DNA from: Candidatus Rokuibacteriota bacterium
GTDB taxonomy: Bacteria > Methylomirabilota > Methylomirabilia > Rokubacteriales > CSP1-6
DNA length: 51,861 nucleotides
Reading direction: 5' to 3'
Assembly (NCBI GenBank): GCA_016188005.1
Contig: JACPIQ010000076.1
Coordinates: 1-51,861 of the forward strand
The position numbers and the translations under genes are program-made. How positions within the stretch are numbered: position 1 is the first letter of the stretch; the number at the start of each line of letters is the position of its first letter. The notes under the pieces were generated by a model. It was not told the DNA's origin and searched no databases. It worked only from the letters and a program-made list of their open reading frames with translations. Positions 4,895 to 51,861 of the stretch are shown piece by piece.

Positions 4895-5254
4895 ATGAAG
4901 AAGGTACTGCTGGTCCTGCTCCTGGTGGTTGGAGTCCTGGCGTTGACCGTCACACCCGGCGACGCACACGGTCGCTGGCGTGGGGGCGTCTTCATCGGCG
5001 TAGGTCCCTACTGGGCTCCGCACCCGTACTGGTGGTACCCGCCGCCGTACTACGCCTACCCGACCTACGTCTATCCGCCGCCCACCGTGGTGGTCGAACA
5101 GCCGCCCGTGTACGTGGAACAGCAGCCGGCGCCGCCGGCAGCTCCCCCGGCGCCTCCCGCGTACTGGTACTACTGCCCGAGCGCCAAGGCCTACTATCCC
5201 ACTGCGCCGGGCTGTCCGGAGGAATGGGTGAAGGTCCCGGAGCGGCCGCGGTGA
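4895..5254 (+). CDS. Secreted Tyr/Pro-rich small protein
   Basis: 119 residues with a clear signal peptide (MKKVLLVLLLVVGVLALTV, cleavage probably after GDAHG or nearby). The mature part is rich in Pro, Tyr and Trp (HPYWWYPPPYYAYPTYVYPP), followed by a Pro/Ala stretch. It ends in the pattern YYCPSAKAYYPTAPGCPEEW, with two cysteines likely disulfide-bonded; this ending is common in small envelope proteins of proteobacteria and related groups. Function is unknown, probably envelope-associated. An ATG 36 nt upstream is in frame, but only this start gives a normal signal peptide. The stop overlaps the next gene's start (TGATG). Confidence 0.85.
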   Translation: MKKVLLVLLLVVGVLALTVTPGDAHGRWRGGVFIGVGPYWAPHPYWWYPPPYYAYPTYVYPPPTVVVEQPPVYVEQQPAPPAAPPAPPAYWYYCPSAKAYYPTAPGCPEEWVKVPERPR

Positions 5255-6687: not shown

Positions 6688-6760
6688 CGTATGTAGTCGT
6701 CTTTTAACGTATATATAGAAACTCCTACAAAAACCGATCGGCAATGGTATATTCCATGGT
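6688..6760 (+). promoter_or_regulatory. AT-rich promoter-like island before the zinc-ribbon gene
   Basis: A short run (TTTTAACGTATATATAGAAA around 6702-6721) is far more AT-rich than anything nearby and lies about 25 nt before the first ATG of the small gene. TATATA is a plausible -10; a matching -35 is not evident. ACGTAT occurs twice in it. Confidence 0.35.
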
Positions 6761-6962
6761 GATGGACCTTCGGCAGGTCGCTGAGCAACCAGACGGGCCG
6801 ACGCGACGCTGCCCGGTGTGCCGGGCGAAGGTCGTCGTGAGGCATCCGGACGGTGTCGTCATTCACAACGCGATTCTCAAGATCGACTCGACCGGACGGG
6901 TCGACGCGAAGTGCGCGCACTGCAAGGCCTGGGTGGAGGTGCCCTTGCGTTACGTCGGGTGA
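6744..6962 (+). CDS. Small two-CxxC zinc-ribbon protein
   Basis: 72 residues with paired cysteines at 23/26 (CPVC) and 57/60 (CAHC), a simple zinc ribbon. The arrangement recalls Com-like or other small nucleic-acid-binding ribbons, but that is a resemblance only. Three ATG codons lie close together (codons 1, 5 and 7); none has a strong ribosome site, so the first is used. It is followed by a strong stem-loop, so it is probably transcribed apart from the next operon. Confidence 0.7.
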   Translation: MVYSMVMDLRQVAEQPDGPTRRCPVCRAKVVVRHPDGVVIHNAILKIDSTGRVDAKCAHCKAWVEVPLRYVG

Positions 6963-6977
6963 GGCGGTCCCCGCAAA

Positions 6978-7068
6978 GGCGACAGTCGAAGCCGAAAGAC
7001 ACAAGCCGGGAGGATGGGCGTCGGGCGCGCCCGCCTCCCGGCTTGTCGTCTCAGGGAGCGACGTCGCC
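6978..7068 (+). ncRNA. Structured leader or terminator before the ATP-grasp operon
   Basis: A 13-bp perfect stem (ACAAGCCGGGAGG at 7001-7013 with its complement at 7034-7046) closes a 20-nt loop that holds a further GGGCG/CGCCC pairing. An outer pairing GGCGAC (6978-6983) with GTCGCC (7063-7068) brackets it, ending 14 nt before the next start codon. There is no U-run, so it is not a classic intrinsic terminator. It may be a transcript end for the zinc-ribbon gene or a cis-acting leader. Confidence 0.45.
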
Positions 7069-7082
7069 ACCGGAGCAGAGTC

Positions 7083-8045
7083 ATGCGTATCGAGCGTTCC
7101 ACACCGATCGGCATTCTCGACGAGCACCCGGAGTGGTCGTCCCGGCTGCTCGCCGAGCTCCAGCACCGCCGGCTCCCCTTCGAGAAGATCGACCACTCGA
7201 ACCACGCCTTCGACCCCCAGGATCGGAGCCGGCGATACGCGGTCATCGTGAACCGCACGAGCCCGTCCTCCCACCGGCGGGGGCACGGCGGCGTCCTCTT
7301 CTACGCCGAGGCGCTCTTGAGCCATTACGAGGCGATCGGCGTGCCCGTCATCAATCCCGTGGCGGCCTGGCGCTTCGAGAAGTCCAAGGCGCTCCAGGTG
7401 GGGCTCTTCGAGCGCCTCGGCCTCCGCTATCCACGCGCGGTCGTCGTGAACCATCGCGACCAGATGCGCAAGGTGAGCGAGGGCCTGCGCTTCCCGCTCC
7501 TCGCCAAGCCCAACGTCGGCGGGTCCGGCGCGCTGATCGAGCGCTTCGACTCACGCGCCGAGCTCGAGGCGCGCGCCGACGCGGTCGACCTCGGGCCCGA
7601 CGGCACCGCCCTGCTCCAGGAGTACATCGAGCCGGAGGCCGGCGCCATCGTCCGGGTGGAGGTGATGGACGGCCGCTATCTCTATGCGATCCGGATCGTG
7701 CGGGCTGCGGCCGACTTCAATCTGTGCCCCGCCGACATCTGCCAGGGTCCCGACGAGCCCCCCGCTTCCGATCTCGGGACGTGCCCGGTCGAGGCGAAGC
7801 CGGGGCTCACCGTGACGCGCTACGATGCCCCGCCGACGGTGATCGATCAGGTGCTCGCGCTCACGCGTGCGGCGTCCATCGATATCGGCGGCGTGGAGTA
7901 CCTCGTGGGACGCGCCGACGGGCAGGTCTATTTCTACGACGTCAACGCCACCTCGAACTTCGTCGCCAACGCGGCCAGCGTGCTGGGGTTCGACCCCTTC
8001 CCGCTCTTCGCGGACTACATCGAAAGGAGAGCGTCATGGCACTGA
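7083..8045 (+). CDS. ATP-grasp ligase (RimK/glutathione-synthase-like)
   Basis: 320 residues. The central ATP-grasp region includes the lysine-containing strand (FPLLAKPNVGGSG), the hinge acidic residues (LLQEYIEPEAGA), and the C-terminal metal/phosphate segment ending in YFYDVNATSNFV with its Asp/Asn pair. Such enzymes join a carboxylate to an amine, thiol or similar via an acyl phosphate. Substrate is unknown. The start follows a GGAG site and a strong hairpin leader. Its last 10 nt overlap the peroxiredoxin gene, and carbonic anhydrase follows, so the three form an operon. A biotin-carboxylase-type role is less likely given its size. Confidence 0.85.
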   Translation: MRIERSTPIGILDEHPEWSSRLLAELQHRRLPFEKIDHSNHAFDPQDRSRRYAVIVNRTSPSSHRRGHGGVLFYAEALLSHYEAIGVPVINPVAAWRFEKSKALQVGLFERLGLRYPRAVVVNHRDQMRKVSEGLRFPLLAKPNVGGSGALIERFDSRAELEARADAVDLGPDGTALLQEYIEPEAGAIVRVEVMDGRYLYAIRIVRAAADFNLCPADICQGPDEPPASDLGTCPVEAKPGLTVTRYDAPPTVIDQVLALTRAASIDIGGVEYLVGRADGQVYFYDVNATSNFVANAASVLGFDPFPLFADYIERRASWH

Positions 8046-9310: not shown

Positions 9311-9330
9311 ACAGCCACCCGCAGGGCTGT
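9311..9330. terminator. Weak hairpin between convergent genes
   Basis: ACAGCC and GGCTGT form a 6-bp stem with an 8-nt loop in the 62-nt gap between the carbonic anhydrase gene and the leftward binding-protein gene. There is no T-run. Position is its main support. Confidence 0.3.
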
Positions 9331-9332
9331 CG

Positions 9333-10400
9333 TCACCGCTGGCCGGCCTCCCGGAGGTATGACGGGTCGATGAACGTCTCGGGCCTGAGGCCCGTGATCT
9401 TGTCTGTGCGTTCGATGACCCTGAGCATGCCAGCAAGGTCCTCGGGCGTCAGGGCTGCGTCTTTCACGAAGCCCTTCAGCTTGCCGACGACCGTGTCGTA
9501 CGTGGCCTCGGCCCTGTCCTGGGGCGTCTTCGTGTACTTCGTGAGCACGGACACGGAAGCCGCCCTGTTGGCCGGGTCGAGCAGGAAGCGGTTCGCATCG
9601 CGGATCGCTCTGGCGTAGGCGACGGTGGCCGCGCGGTTCTTCGCGGCGAAGGACTTGCTCACCATGTGGCTGATGAACACGAACCGGGCCGCTTCGTTGA
9701 CGTAGCCGAGCACCCTGAACCCGGCCTTCTGCGCGGTGAGGTCTTCGGGCGGCGAGAGCACCGTGCCTTGCACCGCGCCGGCGGTGATCGCGGCCAGACG
9801 CGTCGGCGTATTGCCGGACAGGACGAATTCGAAGTCCCTCTCGCCGAGCCCGTGGGCCCGGAGCAACTCGATGAGGAACAGAGTGGAGCCGGCCGTGACG
9901 CTCACCACCGCGATTCGCTTGCCGCGAAGCTTGTCGTACGTGTCGATGGTTGGTGCGGTGACGAGGGCGAGCGCGGGATAGGCGCCCCCTGCGATCATCG
10001 CGATCGGCGCGCCCTTGTTGACTCCCCGGATCATCGAGTCGGTCGCGGCGACACCGAAATCCGCCGACCCTGCAACGACCGCCTGAACGGTGTCCGGACC
10101 ACCCAGCGCATCGATGAACTCGGGCCGCAGATTGTTCTTTGCGAAGAAGCCCTGCGTCTCGGCGACCATCGTGTCCCAGTAGTGCGAGCCGGCCTTGAGC
10201 CCGCCCCCGATCGCGACCTTGATCGGGGTCATCGCCGCCAGTGCCGTCTCCCGGGCGCCGGCCGCTCCCGCGGAGGTTCCGGACGACTGTGCCGACGCAG
10301 TCGCGGGCGCGGCAGCGTCGCCGCCGGTGACGCTGACGAGGGCGGCGATCAGGAGGACCGTTGCGGGAATACTCAGCTGTGGCAGGCAACGAATCTTCAT
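9333..10400 (-). CDS. NMT1/TauA-type ABC substrate-binding protein
   Basis: 355 residues with a signal peptide (MKIRCLPQ, a hydrophobic core IPATVLLIAALVSV, then an Ala/Ser-rich linker). The body follows the NMT1 (nitrate/sulfonate/taurine-type) pattern: IKVAIGGGLKAGSHYWDTMVA, GVAATDSMIRGVNKGAPIAM, LRGKRIAVVS and later AAITAGAVQGTVLSPP. It captures a small organic solute in the periplasm. A GGAGG site precedes the ATG. It is last in the leftward operon after the UGSC-like, lyase and DUF6282 genes; no ATPase or permease accompanies it on this strand, so it must use a transporter encoded elsewhere. Confidence 0.9.
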   Translation of the reverse strand: MKIRCLPQLSIPATVLLIAALVSVTGGDAAAPATASAQSSGTSAGAAGARETALAAMTPIKVAIGGGLKAGSHYWDTMVAETQGFFAKNNLRPEFIDALGGPDTVQAVVAGSADFGVAATDSMIRGVNKGAPIAMIAGGAYPALALVTAPTIDTYDKLRGKRIAVVSVTAGSTLFLIELLRAHGLGERDFEFVLSGNTPTRLAAITAGAVQGTVLSPPEDLTAQKAGFRVLGYVNEAARFVFISHMVSKSFAAKNRAATVAYARAIRDANRFLLDPANRAASVSVLTKYTKTPQDRAEATYDTVVGKLKGFVKDAALTPEDLAGMLRVIERTDKITGLRPETFIDPSYLREAGQR

Positions 10401-45738: not shown

Positions 45739-46270
45739 GGTGTTGTCTTCTCCTCGACCCGGGCCCAGGTCCTCGGCGCCCACGGTGGCGAGGCCGGCCC
45801 GGACCATGGGTACGGAACGAGGGAGTGCAGCCCCGGTGCCAACGCGCCCGCACGCGGAGAGGACCCGATGTGTCGGGGACTTGAGCTGCGCGTCACCCCG
45901 TCGACGGTCCGCGAGGCCGGGCGAGCTGCCACTTCTCGTCCAGCGGGGTCCCAGGAATGGTCGAGGCGACCCGGCTCACGCAGAGCCCGCGCCGACGAGA
46001 ACCGCAGGCGTGCCGCTTGCCTGCACCGGGCGTGTGCCGGCGGTGCACCGGGGTGGGGCAGGGGCCCGCCACCCGGACCCCGCGGGATCGACAGCGCGGC
46101 GAGCGCCTGTGTCCTGACTATGCGCTTGACTCTCCCGCGCCGGCGCCCGTAGAGTTGGGCGGCCGTGAAATGGAGAGCGGTTCCGCAAGATGGAATCGGC
46201 CGACGCCGGGGGGGGCGCGCGGGCTCGGCCGGCACGAGGGCGACGGAGATCACCGGGGAGGGAGCAGACG
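45739..46270. other. Divergent intergenic region
   Basis: About 530 bases between the leftward small membrane-protein gene and the rightward TAXI gene. The TAXI promoter is described separately. The rest is GC-rich without recognisable coding sequence; a leftward frame (46253 to 45729) has no family signature. Confidence 0.4.
46126..46155 (+). promoter_or_regulatory. Sigma70-like promoter for the TAXI-TRAP genes
   Basis: TTGACT (46126-46131), 18-nt spacer, TAGAGT (46150-46155). The match is moderate but it is the only pair of this quality upstream of the TAXI gene, leaving a leader of about 110 nt. Confidence 0.5.
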
Positions 46271-47257
46271 ATGATCCGGACGACGACGTCCATCGGTGTC
46301 GTGCTCGTCGTTTCAGTCCTGGCGCTGGCTTCCTGGAGCGAGGCGGCTGACCCGCCGGCGCCCGGCCTCCGTCCGGTGGCGTCGGCCAGTGTCGCCTGGG
46401 GGACCTCGAGCCAGGGCGGCCTGAGCTATCTCGTTGGCGCCGGCTCGGCGTCGGTGCTGGAGAAGCACATCAAGAACGTGAAGTTCACCGCGCTGGTCTC
46501 CTCGGGATCAGCGGAGAACGCGCGCCGGATCCAGGCTGGCGAGTTCCAGTGCGCCCAGATGACAGCCGACACGGCGCATTTCGGATACCACGGCGGACGG
46601 GAGTTCCAGCAGCCACTCGGGAAGCTCCAGTTCGTCAGCAATCTGTGGATTTCCCCGGAGAACGTGATCGTTCCCCGGGAATCGCCGATCAAGTCGCTGG
46701 GGGACCTGCGGGGCCGGCGCATCACCAGCACGCCGGGGTGGGGGGCGACGATCTTCGCTCGCTCGATCCTGGAGGCGGTCGGGCTCAAGAAAGGCGACTA
46801 TGACATGGTGGTGCTCTCGGCGGCCGATGGGGCCACCTCCTTCCGCGATGGCCGGGTGGATGCCGCGATGTGGGCCTTCGGCGTGCCGACGGCGACGCTG
46901 ACCGAGATCGCCCTCTCGAGAGCCATCCGCTTCATCCCCACCGACACCAAGACGGCGCAGGTCATCCGGGAGAAGTACCCGTACTGGTTTCTCTCGACGA
47001 TTCCGCGCGGGGCGTACCGCGGGGTCAGCGAGGACGTGCCGACCATCGCCAACAACAACGTGTTGCTCTGTTCGGCGGACCTCCCCGACGCGCTCGTCTA
47101 CAACATGACCAAGGTCATGTTCCTCCATGCCAGCGAGATCAAGCAGTCGGTTCCGGCCGCGGAAGCCCTGGGTGTCCCGGCGATGGCGGCCTGGCCGGCC
47201 ATCCCCGCGCACCCGGGCGCCCAGCAGTTCTATCGTGAGGCGGGTCTGATCAAGTAG
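46271..47257 (+). CDS. TAXI-family TRAP solute-binding protein
   Basis: 328 residues with a signal peptide (TTSIGVVLVVSVLALASWSEA). TAXI-type features: SVAWGTSSQGGLSYLVGAGS near the start, SAENARRIQAGEFQCAQ, LRGRRITSTPGWGATIFA and AADGATSFRDGRVDAAMWAFG. GGAGGGAG precedes the ATG. It binds a carboxylate-type solute for the fused TRAP membrane protein 24 nt downstream. Confidence 0.92.
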   Translation: MIRTTTSIGVVLVVSVLALASWSEAADPPAPGLRPVASASVAWGTSSQGGLSYLVGAGSASVLEKHIKNVKFTALVSSGSAENARRIQAGEFQCAQMTADTAHFGYHGGREFQQPLGKLQFVSNLWISPENVIVPRESPIKSLGDLRGRRITSTPGWGATIFARSILEAVGLKKGDYDMVVLSAADGATSFRDGRVDAAMWAFGVPTATLTEIALSRAIRFIPTDTKTAQVIREKYPYWFLSTIPRGAYRGVSEDVPTIANNNVLLCSADLPDALVYNMTKVMFLHASEIKQSVPAAEALGVPAMAAWPAIPAHPGAQQFYREAGLIK

Positions 47258-47281
47258 GGCGGCCGGATCGGGCGCCGCCAG

Positions 47282-49186
47282 ATGTGGGATCGGCTGCGGT
47301 CACTCCCGGGGCTGGGGTCGGGAGCCTGGCTGGGGTGGATGACCGCCGCCCTCGCCGTCACCCTCGCGCTGTTCCACGTCGTGACCGCCCAGTTCGGCCT
47401 GTTGCCCGGCCTGAATCAGCGGATCGCCCATCTCACACTCGTCCTGGCGCTCATCTTTGTCTCGAGCGCGAGCAAGACGGCGACCGTGGGCGGGCCGCTC
47501 GGCCTCCGCCGGTCATGGCCACACCTGGGCCTGGCGCTGCTCGCCGTGGTGGCCGGCGGCTACACCTATCTGGTGGAAGAGTCGATCTCGGACTCGAGCC
47601 GGGTCGGGACGATGACGGCGACGGAGCTGGTGGTGGGCAGCATCCTCATCGTCCTCTGCCTCGAGGGCGGCCGCCAGGTGCTCGGCCTGGCGTTCCCGCT
47701 GATCGCTCTGGCGGGGATTGCCTACATCCTCGTGGGCGGCCAGTTGCCTGCGCCGCTGGGCCACCCGCCGGTATCCTTCTCGCGCGCGATCGAGTTCCTC
47801 TACTTCAGCGCGGAGGGGATCTTCGGGCTGGCGCTCGGCGTCTCGGCGACGTATCTGGCGCTGTTCATCATCTTCGGCGCCTTCATGGCCCGGTCCGGGC
47901 TGAACGACTTCACGTTCGACCTGGCTCGTGCCCTCCTGCGCCGGTCGACCGGGGGGCTGGCGAAGATCGCCGTCTCCGGCAGCGGCGTCATGGCCACCGT
48001 GACCGGAAGCGACATGGCGAATGCCGCGGCGATCGGGGCGGTCAGCATCCCGCTCATGATACGCAACGGCTATCCGCCGGCGTTCGCGGCGGCGGTGGAG
48101 GCGGTGGCCTCGAACGGGGCCCAGCTGATGCCGCCGGTGATGGGCACGGCGGCCTTCCTCATGGCCGAGATCGTGAGAGTCCCCTACGGCCACGTCGCGC
48201 TGGCCGCGGCCCTGCCGGGGGCGCTCTACTACGTCCTCGTCTACGCGATCATCCACCTCCGGGCGGCCCGGCTCGGCCTCCGCGGGAGCGACGAACCGGC
48301 CGCTCGCCCCTGGAGCATCCTGCGCGCCCGGGGGCACCTCCTGCTGCCGATCCCCATCCTGCTCTATCTCGTGACGATGGCCCAGATCTCGATCATGCGG
48401 GCGGCCTACTATTCGCTGCTGTCCGTGGTCCTCGTGACGTTCCTGCGCCGCCGGACCGGGATGAGACCGGCGACGCTGCTCCGTGCCCTGCGCGACGGGG
48501 GTCTCACGCTGACGGGGATCGGTGTGGCGTGCGCGATCGTCGGCATCGTGATGGGCGTGTTCGGGGTGACCGGGCTCGGGTTGCGGCTCTCCGACGCCAT
48601 GATCCAGCTGGCGGCGGGGAATCCCGTGGTCCTCCTCCTGCTGACGGCCCTGGCCAGTCTCGTCCTCGGGACCGGGCTGCCGACGCTCCCGACCTACATC
48701 ATCCTGGCCATCCTGGTGGCGCCGGCCCTCATCCAGCTGGGGATCGATCCGCTCGCGGCCCACCTGTTCATCTTCTACTTCGGCAACGTCTCCTCCGTCA
48801 CGCCGCCCGTTGCCCTGAGCGTGATCATCACCGCCAATATCGCCAGGGCGAACTTCTGGGAGACGGGGTGGCTGTCGATCCGGATGTCCCTGGCCACGTT
48901 CTTGCTGCCGTTTGCCTTCGTCATCGACCCGGCGCTCATCCTCCGAGGCGATCCCGTCAGCGTGATCGTGGCGGCCGGCCTGGCCGGCGGGGGCCTCCTG
49001 GCCCTCGCGGTGGCCCTGGAGGGGTACTGGCGCCGCGAGGTGCCGATCGGGCTCCGGCTCCTGGGGGGCCTCGGAGCGACGATCCTCGTGGTGGCGAAGT
49101 TCCCGGTCGCCCTGGTGGGCGCGGCGCTGGTCGTCCCCGTTGTCTGGCATCAGTGCTGGAAACGTCCGGATCGGGTTCGACCCTAG
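47282..49186 (+). CDS. TRAP transporter permease, fused 4TM/12TM (DctQM-type)
   Basis: 634 residues, a single polypeptide combining the small (DctQ) and large (DctM) membrane parts, as is usual with TAXI systems. The large domain shows GSGVMATVTGSDMANAAAIG and TGLPTLPTYIILAILVAPAL repeats around the transport site. It uses an ion gradient rather than ATP. The start has no strong ribosome site. Confidence 0.93.
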   Translation: MWDRLRSLPGLGSGAWLGWMTAALAVTLALFHVVTAQFGLLPGLNQRIAHLTLVLALIFVSSASKTATVGGPLGLRRSWPHLGLALLAVVAGGYTYLVEESISDSSRVGTMTATELVVGSILIVLCLEGGRQVLGLAFPLIALAGIAYILVGGQLPAPLGHPPVSFSRAIEFLYFSAEGIFGLALGVSATYLALFIIFGAFMARSGLNDFTFDLARALLRRSTGGLAKIAVSGSGVMATVTGSDMANAAAIGAVSIPLMIRNGYPPAFAAAVEAVASNGAQLMPPVMGTAAFLMAEIVRVPYGHVALAAALPGALYYVLVYAIIHLRAARLGLRGSDEPAARPWSILRARGHLLLPIPILLYLVTMAQISIMRAAYYSLLSVVLVTFLRRRTGMRPATLLRALRDGGLTLTGIGVACAIVGIVMGVFGVTGLGLRLSDAMIQLAAGNPVVLLLLTALASLVLGTGLPTLPTYIILAILVAPALIQLGIDPLAAHLFIFYFGNVSSVTPPVALSVIITANIARANFWETGWLSIRMSLATFLLPFAFVIDPALILRGDPVSVIVAAGLAGGGLLALAVALEGYWRREVPIGLRLLGGLGATILVVAKFPVALVGAALVVPVVWHQCWKRPDRVRP

Positions 49187-49197
49187 ACGGCGCCCGC

Positions 49198-49215
49198 GCC
49201 CTCGCCCGAGAGGGC
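49198..49215. terminator. Weak hairpin between convergent genes
   Basis: GCCCTC (49198-49203) and GAGGGC (49210-49215) form a 6-bp stem with a 6-nt loop between the TRAP gene and the leftward hydrolase. No T-run. Confidence 0.3.
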
Positions 49216-49274
49216 ATCGGCCAGGCGCCGCCGGCGGGATCGGCCGCGCGTGATCGAGAAGCCCGGCAGTGGGC

Positions 49275-50087
49275 TCAGGCCAGGCCGCGGTGCCTCGAGA
49301 GGAAGCCCCGCAGCTCCTCCGCGCACCGCTCGGGGGCGGCATCGGCGATGTTGTGCGGCAGCCCGTGGTAGACCACGAACTCGCAGTCCCGGATGCGGTC
49401 GCGGAGCACCTCGTACTGCGCCATCGAGCTGATGGGGTCGTGCTCCGGGACGACGGCGAGCGTCGGGCAGCGGATCCGCCCGAGCGCCTCCGTGAGGTCG
49501 ATCGTCGCCATGAGCGACACGAACCGCGCCAGCAGCTCCGGGCTCGTCTTCGCCGATTCGTCGAGGAACCAGTCGACGAAGCCCGGCTCGACCGTCGCGA
49601 GGTCGAACCGGTCGGCGATCCGGTCGCGGAGAAATCCGCGCACCCCTTTCGCGCGGATCTCGGCGCCCCACCGCTCCGCGTCCACGTTGGAGGGCTTGAG
49701 GCCCGGTGTGCTGGCGAACGCCGCCAGCGTGCGCACGCGTTCGGGGTACCCGATCGCGACCGCCAGCGAGATGATCGCGCCGCCCGACACGCCGGCGAGG
49801 TGGAAGCGCGCGGCACCGAGGTGGTCGGCCAGCTCGATCACGTCGCGGGCGAGCCGGTCGAGCGTCAAGCCGTCCGGCCCCGGGACCTCCGACGCGCCGT
49901 GGCCGCGGAGGTCCGGGCGCACGACGCGGCAGACGCGCCCGAGGATCGGCACCCACGCGTAGAAGCGTCGGGCGCTACCCATCCCGGCGTGCAGCAGGAG
50001 GAGCGTCTCCGGCGGCTTCCACGGGTCGGTGAAGTCGTCGACCAGGTACTCCAGCCGCAGCCCATCGCTCGCCGCGAAGCTCGGCAT
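49275..50087 (-). CDS. Alpha/beta-hydrolase fold enzyme
   Basis: 270 residues. The nucleophile elbow is GVSGG (Ser101), with Asp217 (PEHDP) and His245 (GLPHN) as the rest of the triad and LLLLHAGMGSARRF for the oxyanion region. The 3-oxoadipate enol-lactonase (PcaD)/ester-hydrolase group is a good guess, no more. GGAGGAGGGGAGC leads into the ATG. It stands alone, facing the TRAP genes and divergent from the ABC operon at 50195; the shared intergenic region holds a palindrome that may serve both. Confidence 0.88.
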   Translation of the reverse strand: MPSFAASDGLRLEYLVDDFTDPWKPPETLLLLHAGMGSARRFYAWVPILGRVCRVVRPDLRGHGASEVPGPDGLTLDRLARDVIELADHLGAARFHLAGVSGGAIISLAVAIGYPERVRTLAAFASTPGLKPSNVDAERWGAEIRAKGVRGFLRDRIADRFDLATVEPGFVDWFLDESAKTSPELLARFVSLMATIDLTEALGRIRCPTLAVVPEHDPISSMAQYEVLRDRIRDCEFVVYHGLPHNIADAAPERCAEELRGFLSRHRGLA

Positions 50088-50194
50088 GCTCCCCTCCTCC
50101 ATCGGATCCGCGCCGCGGGTGCCGCGATGCGACGCGCGTCGAAACGCGGGCCCAGCTCGGCCGGGCACCGGGCGGCCCGGTGCCGGTCGAGGTC

Positions 50195-50223
50195 TTGACT
50201 CCTCCAGGAGTTCCCCGTACAGT
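50195..50223 (+). promoter_or_regulatory. Sigma70 promoter of the right-end ABC operon
   Basis: TTGACT (50195-50200), exact 17-nt spacer, TACAGT (50218-50223). Transcription would begin about 50230, just before the palindrome. Confidence 0.65.
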
Positions 50224-50235
50224 GTGGCATCCGCA

Positions 50236-50256
50236 ATACGGAGATAATCTCCGTAT
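50236..50256. promoter_or_regulatory. Perfect 21-bp palindrome, likely IclR-type operator
   Basis: Half-site ATACGGAGAT, a central A, then the exact inverted copy. It lies just after the predicted transcription start. IclR itself binds GGAAATnATTTCC; this site has the same spacing and a near-identical core (GGAGATnATCTCC), so an IclR-family protein is the first candidate. No regulator gene is adjacent within the window. Confidence 0.7.
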
Positions 50257-50298
50257 CTTGGAACCCCCGTCAAGGGGGCAGGAGCCAAGGAGCACGCG

Positions 50299-50415
50299 GT
50301 GAACCAGCGGCAACTGGGGGTCCTGCTGCTCATCGTCGCCGGCGGCGCGGGGGCCGGTCCTGCGTCCCCACGCCCGTGCCACGGCGCGGCGGAGCCCCGA
50401 TGGCCCTCCGCCTAG
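50299..50415 (+). pseudogene. Signal-peptide-only reading frame before the ATPase
   Basis: GTG with AAGGAG 6 nt upstream opens a 38-codon frame: NQRQLGVLLLIVAGGAGAGP is a normal signal peptide, but the frame ends at TAG 15 nt into the ATPase gene. In the other NMT1-type operons a full binding-protein gene accompanies the ATPase and permease. This looks like the remaining front end of such a gene after an internal deletion. It could instead be a real coupling leader peptide. Confidence 0.55.
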
Positions 50416-51191
50416 AGGGCGTCTCCAAGACGTACGGCGCGGCGCACGCGGAGACCGAGACCGCCGCCATCGCGAACATCGACATGGTCATCAACGACCA
50501 CGAGTTCGTCTGCGTCGTCGGTCGCAGCGGGTGCGGGAAGACGACGCTGCTCCGGATGGTGGCTGGGCTCACCACGCCCACCGCCGGGCGGATCGTGCTC
50601 GACGACAGGCCGGTGCGGGGACCGGGGCCGAATCGGGGCGTGGTGTTCCAGGACTACGCGCTCTTCGCGTGGCGTACGGCCGCCGAGAACATCGCGTTCG
50701 GTCCGAAGATGAAGGGCCTGTCCGTTGCGGAGCGTGACAGGATCGTCAAGCGATACGTCAAGCTCGTCGGACTGGAGGGTTTCGAGGACCGCTATCCCTC
50801 CGCGCTGTCGGGCGGAATGCAGCAGCGCGTGGCCGTGGCACGCGCTCTGGCCAACCAGCCGGCGGCGCTCCTGATGGACGAGCCGTTCGCCGCGGTCGAC
50901 GCGCTGACGAGGGCCTCGCTCCAGGAGGAGCTGACGAAGATCTGGCTCGCGGAGCGGCCGATGGTGCTGTTCGTCACGCACAGCGTCGACGAAGCCGTCT
51001 TTCTCGCCGATCGCGTCGTGGTGCTCGGGGACCGTCCCTCGGTGATCGTGGCCGAGTTCCGCGTGAACGTCGATCGCCCCCGGCGCTGGAAGGAGCTGAT
51101 GGACGACCCGGCGTTCAGCGACCTTCGGCACCGGGTCCTGGAGGCGATCGGGCAGGCGGCCGAGACGGCCAACGGAGGAAGCCATGGCTAG
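50400..51191 (+). CDS. ABC transporter ATPase (SsuB/TauB-type)
   Basis: 263 residues. Walker A GRSGCGKTT, signature LSGGMQQR, Walker B LLMDEPFAAVDA and FVTHSVDEA, with a typical nitrate/sulfonate/taurine importer layout. The ATG lies after GCGGAG and inside the short signal-peptide frame, so its translation may be coupled to that frame. The stop TAG overlaps the permease start region. Confidence 0.93.
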   Translation: MALRLEGVSKTYGAAHAETETAAIANIDMVINDHEFVCVVGRSGCGKTTLLRMVAGLTTPTAGRIVLDDRPVRGPGPNRGVVFQDYALFAWRTAAENIAFGPKMKGLSVAERDRIVKRYVKLVGLEGFEDRYPSALSGGMQQRVAVARALANQPAALLMDEPFAAVDALTRASLQEELTKIWLAERPMVLFVTHSVDEAVFLADRVVVLGDRPSVIVAEFRVNVDRPRRWKELMDDPAFSDLRHRVLEAIGQAAETANGGSHG

Positions 51192-51861
51192 CGGGAAGGC
51201 GACGGTTTCCCCGGCGGGTATCGCCCCTCGGCCTGGCGCCGCCGCCCGCCCCCCCCGACGGGCGCTCTCGACCATCGGCACGCTCGTGCTGGGTCCGTTC
51301 GTGCCCCTCCTGATCGTCTGGGAGGTCGTGGCCGACCTCCGGATCTACCCCGCGTACCTCTTCCCCGGCCCATCGGCGGTGGGCATGGCGTTCTGGGAAC
51401 TCGCCGCATCGGGCGCCCTCTGGCCCCACATCGCCGACAGCCTGCTGCGCGCCGTGCTCGGGTTCGTGGCTGGCGTCGCGATCGCGCTCCCCCTGGGGCT
51501 CCTCATGGGCATCAGCCGTCCGATCGCCCGCTACTTCAACCCCCTCGTCATCTTCTTCCAGGCGATTCCCGGTCTCGCCTGGATCCCGCTCGTCATCCTC
51601 TGGCTCGGCATCGGCTACAAGGCCGTGACCTTCATCATCTTCATCAGCGTGTTCTTCCCGGTGCTCCTCAATACCATCGTCGGCGTGAGGGCGATCCGGG
51701 CGACGGTCATCGAGGCCGCCCGGACCCTCGGCGCGTCGCGTCTGGCGCTGGTCCGGGAGATCTACATCCCCGGCGCCCTGCCGTCCATCATGGCCGGCTT
51801 CCGTCTGGGCTTCGGCTTCGGGTGGCGCGCGCTGGTGGCGGGCGAGATGATCGCGTCCTCG
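51184..51861 (+). CDS. ABC transporter permease (SsuC/TauC-type), N-terminal part (runs off window)
   Basis: 226 codons with no stop before the window ends. A 35-residue hydrophilic N-terminus precedes the first helix (LVLGPFVPLLIVWEVV). The EAA loop reads VIEAARTLGASRLALVREIY. The start overlaps the last 8 nt of the ATPase gene. Its binding protein may be lost (see the short frame upstream) or encoded further right. Confidence 0.92.
   Translation, partial: MASGKATVSPAGIAPRPGAAARPPRRALSTIGTLVLGPFVPLLIVWEVVADLRIYPAYLFPGPSAVGMAFWELAASGALWPHIADSLLRAVLGFVAGVAIALPLGLLMGISRPIARYFNPLVIFFQAIPGLAWIPLVILWLGIGYKAVTFIIFISVFFPVLLNTIVGVRAIRATVIEAARTLGASRLALVREIYIPGALPSIMAGFRLGFGFGWRALVAGEMIASS

Follow-up and report, generated by a model that had tools for sequence, protein, structure and literature searches.

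Does an apparent gene start that has no gene behind it, lying directly in front of an ABC ATPase gene, mark the place of a lost binding-protein (SBP) gene? The question arises near one end of the window, the 51,861-nucleotide stretch analysed here (G+C 69%), which is an entire contig (C76) from a draft genome of a Candidatus Rokuibacteriota bacterium (5.37 Mb, 140 contigs, estimated contamination 4.67%).

The short frame and its signal peptide

The 38-aa product of the frame is VNQRQLGVLLLIVAGGAGAGPASPRPCHGAAEPRWPSA. GTG 50299 is the earliest ATG, GTG or TTG past the preceding in-frame stop, and the closing TAG lies 16 nt within the ATPase gene, taking ATG 50400 as the ATPase start (Table 1). 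The first 19 codons specify a brief n-region with a single arginine, a hydrophobic run with a mean Kyte-Doolittle value of 2.61 across 11 residues, and an A-G-A end at residues 17–19, which would suit signal peptidase. The original prediction described a GTG with a strong ribosome site and a signal peptide, stopping inside the ATPase start; the AAGGAG, codons 1–19 and the TAG at 50413–50415 all agree with that description.

Table 1. Features at the start of the operon (positions in the window)
Feature	Position	Strand	Remarks
Candidate sigma-70-like promoter, TTGACT-17-TACAGT	50195–50223	+	9/12 consensus matches; likeness in sequence, not function
Perfect 10-bp inverted repeat, 1-nt centre	50236–50256		directly 3' of the -10; possible operator (putative function)
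Short inverted repeat, CCCCC-GTCAA-GGGGG	50264–50278	+	presumed 5' untranslated region; sequence reading
Ribosome-binding site of the short frame, AAGGAG	50287–50292	+	6 bases 5' of the GTG; sequence reading
38-codon frame	50299–50415	+	codons 1–19 (50299–50355) gene-like signal peptide; next 19 not gene-like; TAG
Presumed junction region	50356–50399	+	clearly coding in none of the three + frames (codon model)
ABC ATPase, PF00005	50400–51191	+	ATG 50400; ORF open from GTG 50376
ABC permease, PF00528	51184–51861	+	cut by the contig end

A chance frame without meaning would be conceivable, the frame having a mere 38 codons within GC-rich DNA. Shuffling argues against it: among 2000 dinucleotide shuffles of 50094–50412, none gave a + strand frame equalling the observed one in ribosome site plus hydrophobicity, and one qualified at laxer limits (SD at least 5, h at least 2.0). 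A control on the genome itself covered the window and 20 further stretches (420,351 bases, both strands), at limits set after the short frame had been seen (SD at least 6, h at least 2.0, net charge at least 1). It returned 19 starts belonging to 18 distinct frames, 17 of them of at least 80 aa, and the sole short one is the frame at 50299; all 18 starts of long frames are followed by coding-like codon positions (GC3-GC2 above 0.2). Short frames made up 1 of 31 at SD of at least 5 and h of at least 2.0, and the rarity weakened at the laxer settings, with 4 of 42 at SD of at least 5 and h of at least 1.6, and 8 of 61 (one truncated by the end of its stretch) at SD of at least 4 and h of at least 2.0. 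The post hoc choice of limits and the count at the laxest of them favour chance; given the shuffles and the single short frame among 18 in 420 kb, we consider a meaningless frame extremely improbable.

With 276 predicted ORFs as the training set, a codon model gave coding log-odds of +9.46 for codons 1–19 and -5.41 for codons 20–38, with the switch from gene-like to non-gene-like sequence at about 50355. The score is driven largely by the hydrophobic residues, the synonymous component being only +2.75 versus +0.81. Judged by its sequence, the frame would combine a genuine start with a coding-like part that breaks off, as a truncated gene remnant does. A strong ribosome site with an export signal and no protein is rare here (one of the 18 frames), and a gene remnant can be recognised by its start alone.

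The operon and its upstream region

The nearest NCBIfam models of the ATPase are of the nitrate/taurine/sulfonate type, all under their cut-offs; the substrate of the transporter is left unnamed, because no displayed NCBIfam cut-off was reached. A divergent alpha/beta hydrolase gene lies upstream of the operon. Two promoter-like sites occur in 50050–50500, where shuffled sequences average 0.0 (sd 0.2). The palindrome at 50236–50256 is unique in the genome when up to 3 mismatches are allowed; it overlaps a promoter-like site of the - strand and lies just 3' of one of the + strand. A second perfect 10-bp inverted repeat, also with a 1-nt centre, is found at 50164–50184, and both repeats lie between the hydrolase gene and the operon. 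Known RNA regulatory elements were not recognised in 49900–50700 (no Rfam match at E ≤ 1). The hydrolase did not lead to a conserved neighbourhood: its relatives, at 72% (G001) and 70% (G089), show, on the upstream side of the hydrolase, no DNA similarity that reaches past that gene.

If the frame encoded a working leader or a small membrane peptide, it would be translated, and its overlap would couple translation of the ATPase, or the peptide itself would serve the transporter. Several features suit such a role, namely the strong ribosome site, preceded by a promoter-like site and a palindrome, the stop within the ATPase gene, the folding of 50228–50430, which is better than that of 200 of 200 shuffles (z -3.11), and the energy predicted to be needed to open the ATPase start, which falls from 14.3 to 11.6 kcal/mol when the leader region is cleared (values with no background set). 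Against it, the ATPase start is of usual accessibility, 64 of 120 background starts being more open, and codons 20–38 are not gene-like. Short frames 5' of the ATPase, at SD of at least 4 and h of at least 1.8, turned up in just two of 108 other operons, three of which have fewer than 100 bases upstream; the two are a weak 32-aa frame (L100) and the end of a permease (L126). A search with the 38-aa peptide in 95 genomes of the class gave no convincing match among those listed, the next (E 0.0017) covering 19 hydrophobic residues at 79% within a 614-aa frame. A short frame kept in front of the same gene was not found in these 108 operons and 95 genomes, a set that includes no close relative. 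The functional leader coupling translation, which the original prediction had offered as its alternative, loses ground, as no relative was found to carry a like frame and the ATPase start is not unusually closed, and we consider it rather unlikely. Translational coupling may operate in this one genome, because of the lower opening cost after clearing and the better-than-shuffle folding.

Gene order in related operons

The 109 operons compared were located by profile searches for the ATPase, the permease and the SBP, the SBP profile being seeded with two proteins only (L136, L137). They comprise the window, 80 loci taken from the matches listed in a pattern-based search of 84,980 species genomes, and 28 of 29 stretches from the same genome and from genomes of the class, one 100-base stretch being left out. 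The class stretches are the 20 best ATPase matches after the window plus 8 hand-picked ones, and are not a random sample. In the ATPase tree, the window falls inside a 43-row clade (support 100/98), the internal order of which the tree leaves unsettled. Among the 42 other operons of this clade, an SBP gene stands directly 5' of the ATPase in 30, which do not amount to 30 independent cases because the rows are related. The remaining orders are permease(s)-ATPase-SBP (8) and ATPase-permease(s)-SBP (3), with one operon cut by a contig edge. The gap from the SBP stop to the ATPase domain is 27–151 nt in 28 of the 30 SBP-first operons, and 513 and 596 nt in the other two.

The permease tree, which resolves more sharply than that of the ATPase, places the window in a four-row clade (99/98) with L056 (a Reyranella MAG), L137 (genome G031) and a sister operon of the same genome, L136 (contig C30), and pairs it with L056 at 97/79 on a long branch. 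Two of these three nearest operons by permease, L056 and L137, have the order SBP-ATPase-permease, with the SBP stop and the probable ATPase start of L137 sharing bases in GTGA. The sister operon has the order ATPase-permease-SBP. The SBPs of all three, L136 by its first 141 aa, match PF09084 (NMT1). The sister operon also leaves its contig, inside its SBP gene (6748–7173); its ATPase frame may start at an ATG after GAGGAG (4923–5010), which would add some 20 residues, rich in arginine, at the N-terminus.

The best identity to the window among the matches listed is 58–59% for the ATPase and 57% for the permease. A closer ortholog was found neither in the 95 class genomes nor in 388 relatives, nor among the listed matches from the 84,980 species genomes, in which the best of the 80 loci reaches 56% and from which the records nearest to the window's genome may be missing. 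No intact predecessor has been seen, because of this lack of a close ortholog.

A proposed loss of a binding-protein gene

The short frame occupies the usual SBP slot and resembles a gene start without a gene, which makes the loss of an SBP body the simplest account. It would be the surviving front of an exported-protein gene, with ribosome site, start codon and export signal. The lost gene would most likely be an NMT1-type SBP, which heads many operons of this family. A deletion reaching from about codon 20 to just before the ATPase gene would have removed the gene body, and ribosomes starting at 50299 would now translate 19 meaningless codons and halt just within the ATPase start, so that the 38-mer would have no function of its own. 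From sequence evidence, we favour with moderate confidence that the frame is the front of a deleted exported-protein gene, most likely the SBP gene of the operon, and we infer both that the deletion arose in vivo and that the peptide is functionless. An SBP-first ancestor is uncertain, because the sister operon is ATPase-first with the SBP last and has no such leader.

When 96 signal peptides were compared, a specific likeness of the short frame's signal to those of SBPs was not found, the SBPs of L136 and L056 ranking 9th and 29th, and by eye no SBP tail was recognised in 50356–50399 in any of the three frames. The eight best pairwise scores belong to starts of other frames of the genome, not to the SBPs compared, which would suit the front of a different exported-protein gene, or a start imported with its promoter, rather than the operon's own SBP. 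In position and strand the frame fits the slot that an SBP fills in 30 of 42 relatives, and this origin appears highly improbable. The claim that the frame is a trace of a deleted SBP gene is supported as to what looks like an exported-protein gene start without its body in the SBP slot, and is presumptive as to the SBP identity and as to a loss in the cell instead of in the assembly. The check proposed along with it, a full SBP gene at the same locus in relatives, found an SBP in the slot in those 30 of 42, with no close ortholog and no specific match to the signal peptide. On the whole, we regard the short frame as an ordinary gene remnant, an interpretation that is partly supported. An 8-bp direct repeat with copies at 50319 and 50356 was discarded as a possible deletion scar, since a deletion between repeats would have spared only one of the two copies.

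The same repeat speaks for a fault of assembly, in which the cell would carry an intact SBP gene that the draft skipped or collapsed at about 50355. The state of the draft, with 140 contigs and 4.67% estimated contamination, and the contig end 1.5 kb downstream, with no continuation recognised in the bin, are compatible with such a fault. Opposed to it, 48000–51861 contains no N, 50080–50430 holds no direct repeat longer than 8 nt at distances up to 100, the next match of 50150–51191 in the genome is 71% and starts 3' of 50499, and a second SBP near that of the sister operon was not found in the genome (the next has 36% identity; query, first 141 aa). An assembly fault is in our view unlikely.

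Does the transporter have a receptor?

According to the original prediction, the deletion leaves the transporter without its own receptor. This claim is not supported: the contig stops in the permease gene at 51861, and the SBP of the sister operon comes behind the permease. A receptor known to be missing was rejected on these two grounds, the contig end and the SBP-last order of the sister. No continuation of the contig was recognised in the bin with the last 160 bases as query, and with the sister's permease tail as query, matches beyond C30 were weaker (best E 7.4e-8) and inside longer frames. As neither a continuation nor a second sister-like SBP was recognised in the bin, the missing part of the operon was not assembled, was not binned or differs too much for the queries used.

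The genome has other SBP-like proteins, with two matches on the window's contig at 9897–10250 (-) and 27424–27822 (+). Such proteins enter a variant in which all that remains of the SBP gene is its signal peptide, still translated and retained to provide a start site. The ribosome site that once served the SBP would now supply the ATPase through the overlap, and one of the genome's other NMT1-type proteins would lend the receptor; we hold this to be very unlikely. If the SBP is truly gone, the operon would be a natural case for how an importer obtains its receptor. Elsewhere in the window, 9322–10239 recurs at 83% DNA identity on another contig of this genome, C62 (L214:3280–4194), and 46265–49186 encodes a binding protein of the NMT1-like family PF16868 and, after it, a 634-aa PF06808 DctM protein, a TRAP-type pair that we take to be probably of the TAXI kind.

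Comparison with known systems

The operon shares with NMT1/SsuA-type ABC importers (PF09084 SBP, PF00005, PF00528) an ATPase followed by one permease, as in L056 and L137, and differs from them in that its ATPase gene is not preceded by a complete SBP gene. Small hydrophobic first genes head transporter operons, KdpF being an example. The short frame resembles these in being a short hydrophobic frame heading a transporter operon, and differs in its run of about 15 residues and its A-x-A end, which are like those of a signal peptide, and in that conservation was not found in the 108 operons and 95 genomes.

In the titles and abstract beginnings of the papers listed, nothing concerns a leftover signal peptide in front of an ABC ATPase. 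In Clostridioides difficile, an ABC transporter is reported to have lost both its SBP gene and its ATPase gene (PMC5951980). The point in common would be an ABC operon that loses its binding-protein gene. There, the ATPase gene went as well, many genomes were compared and a phenotype was measured, whereas the window comes from one draft genome and would retain the ATPase gene behind a remnant consisting of the signal peptide only.
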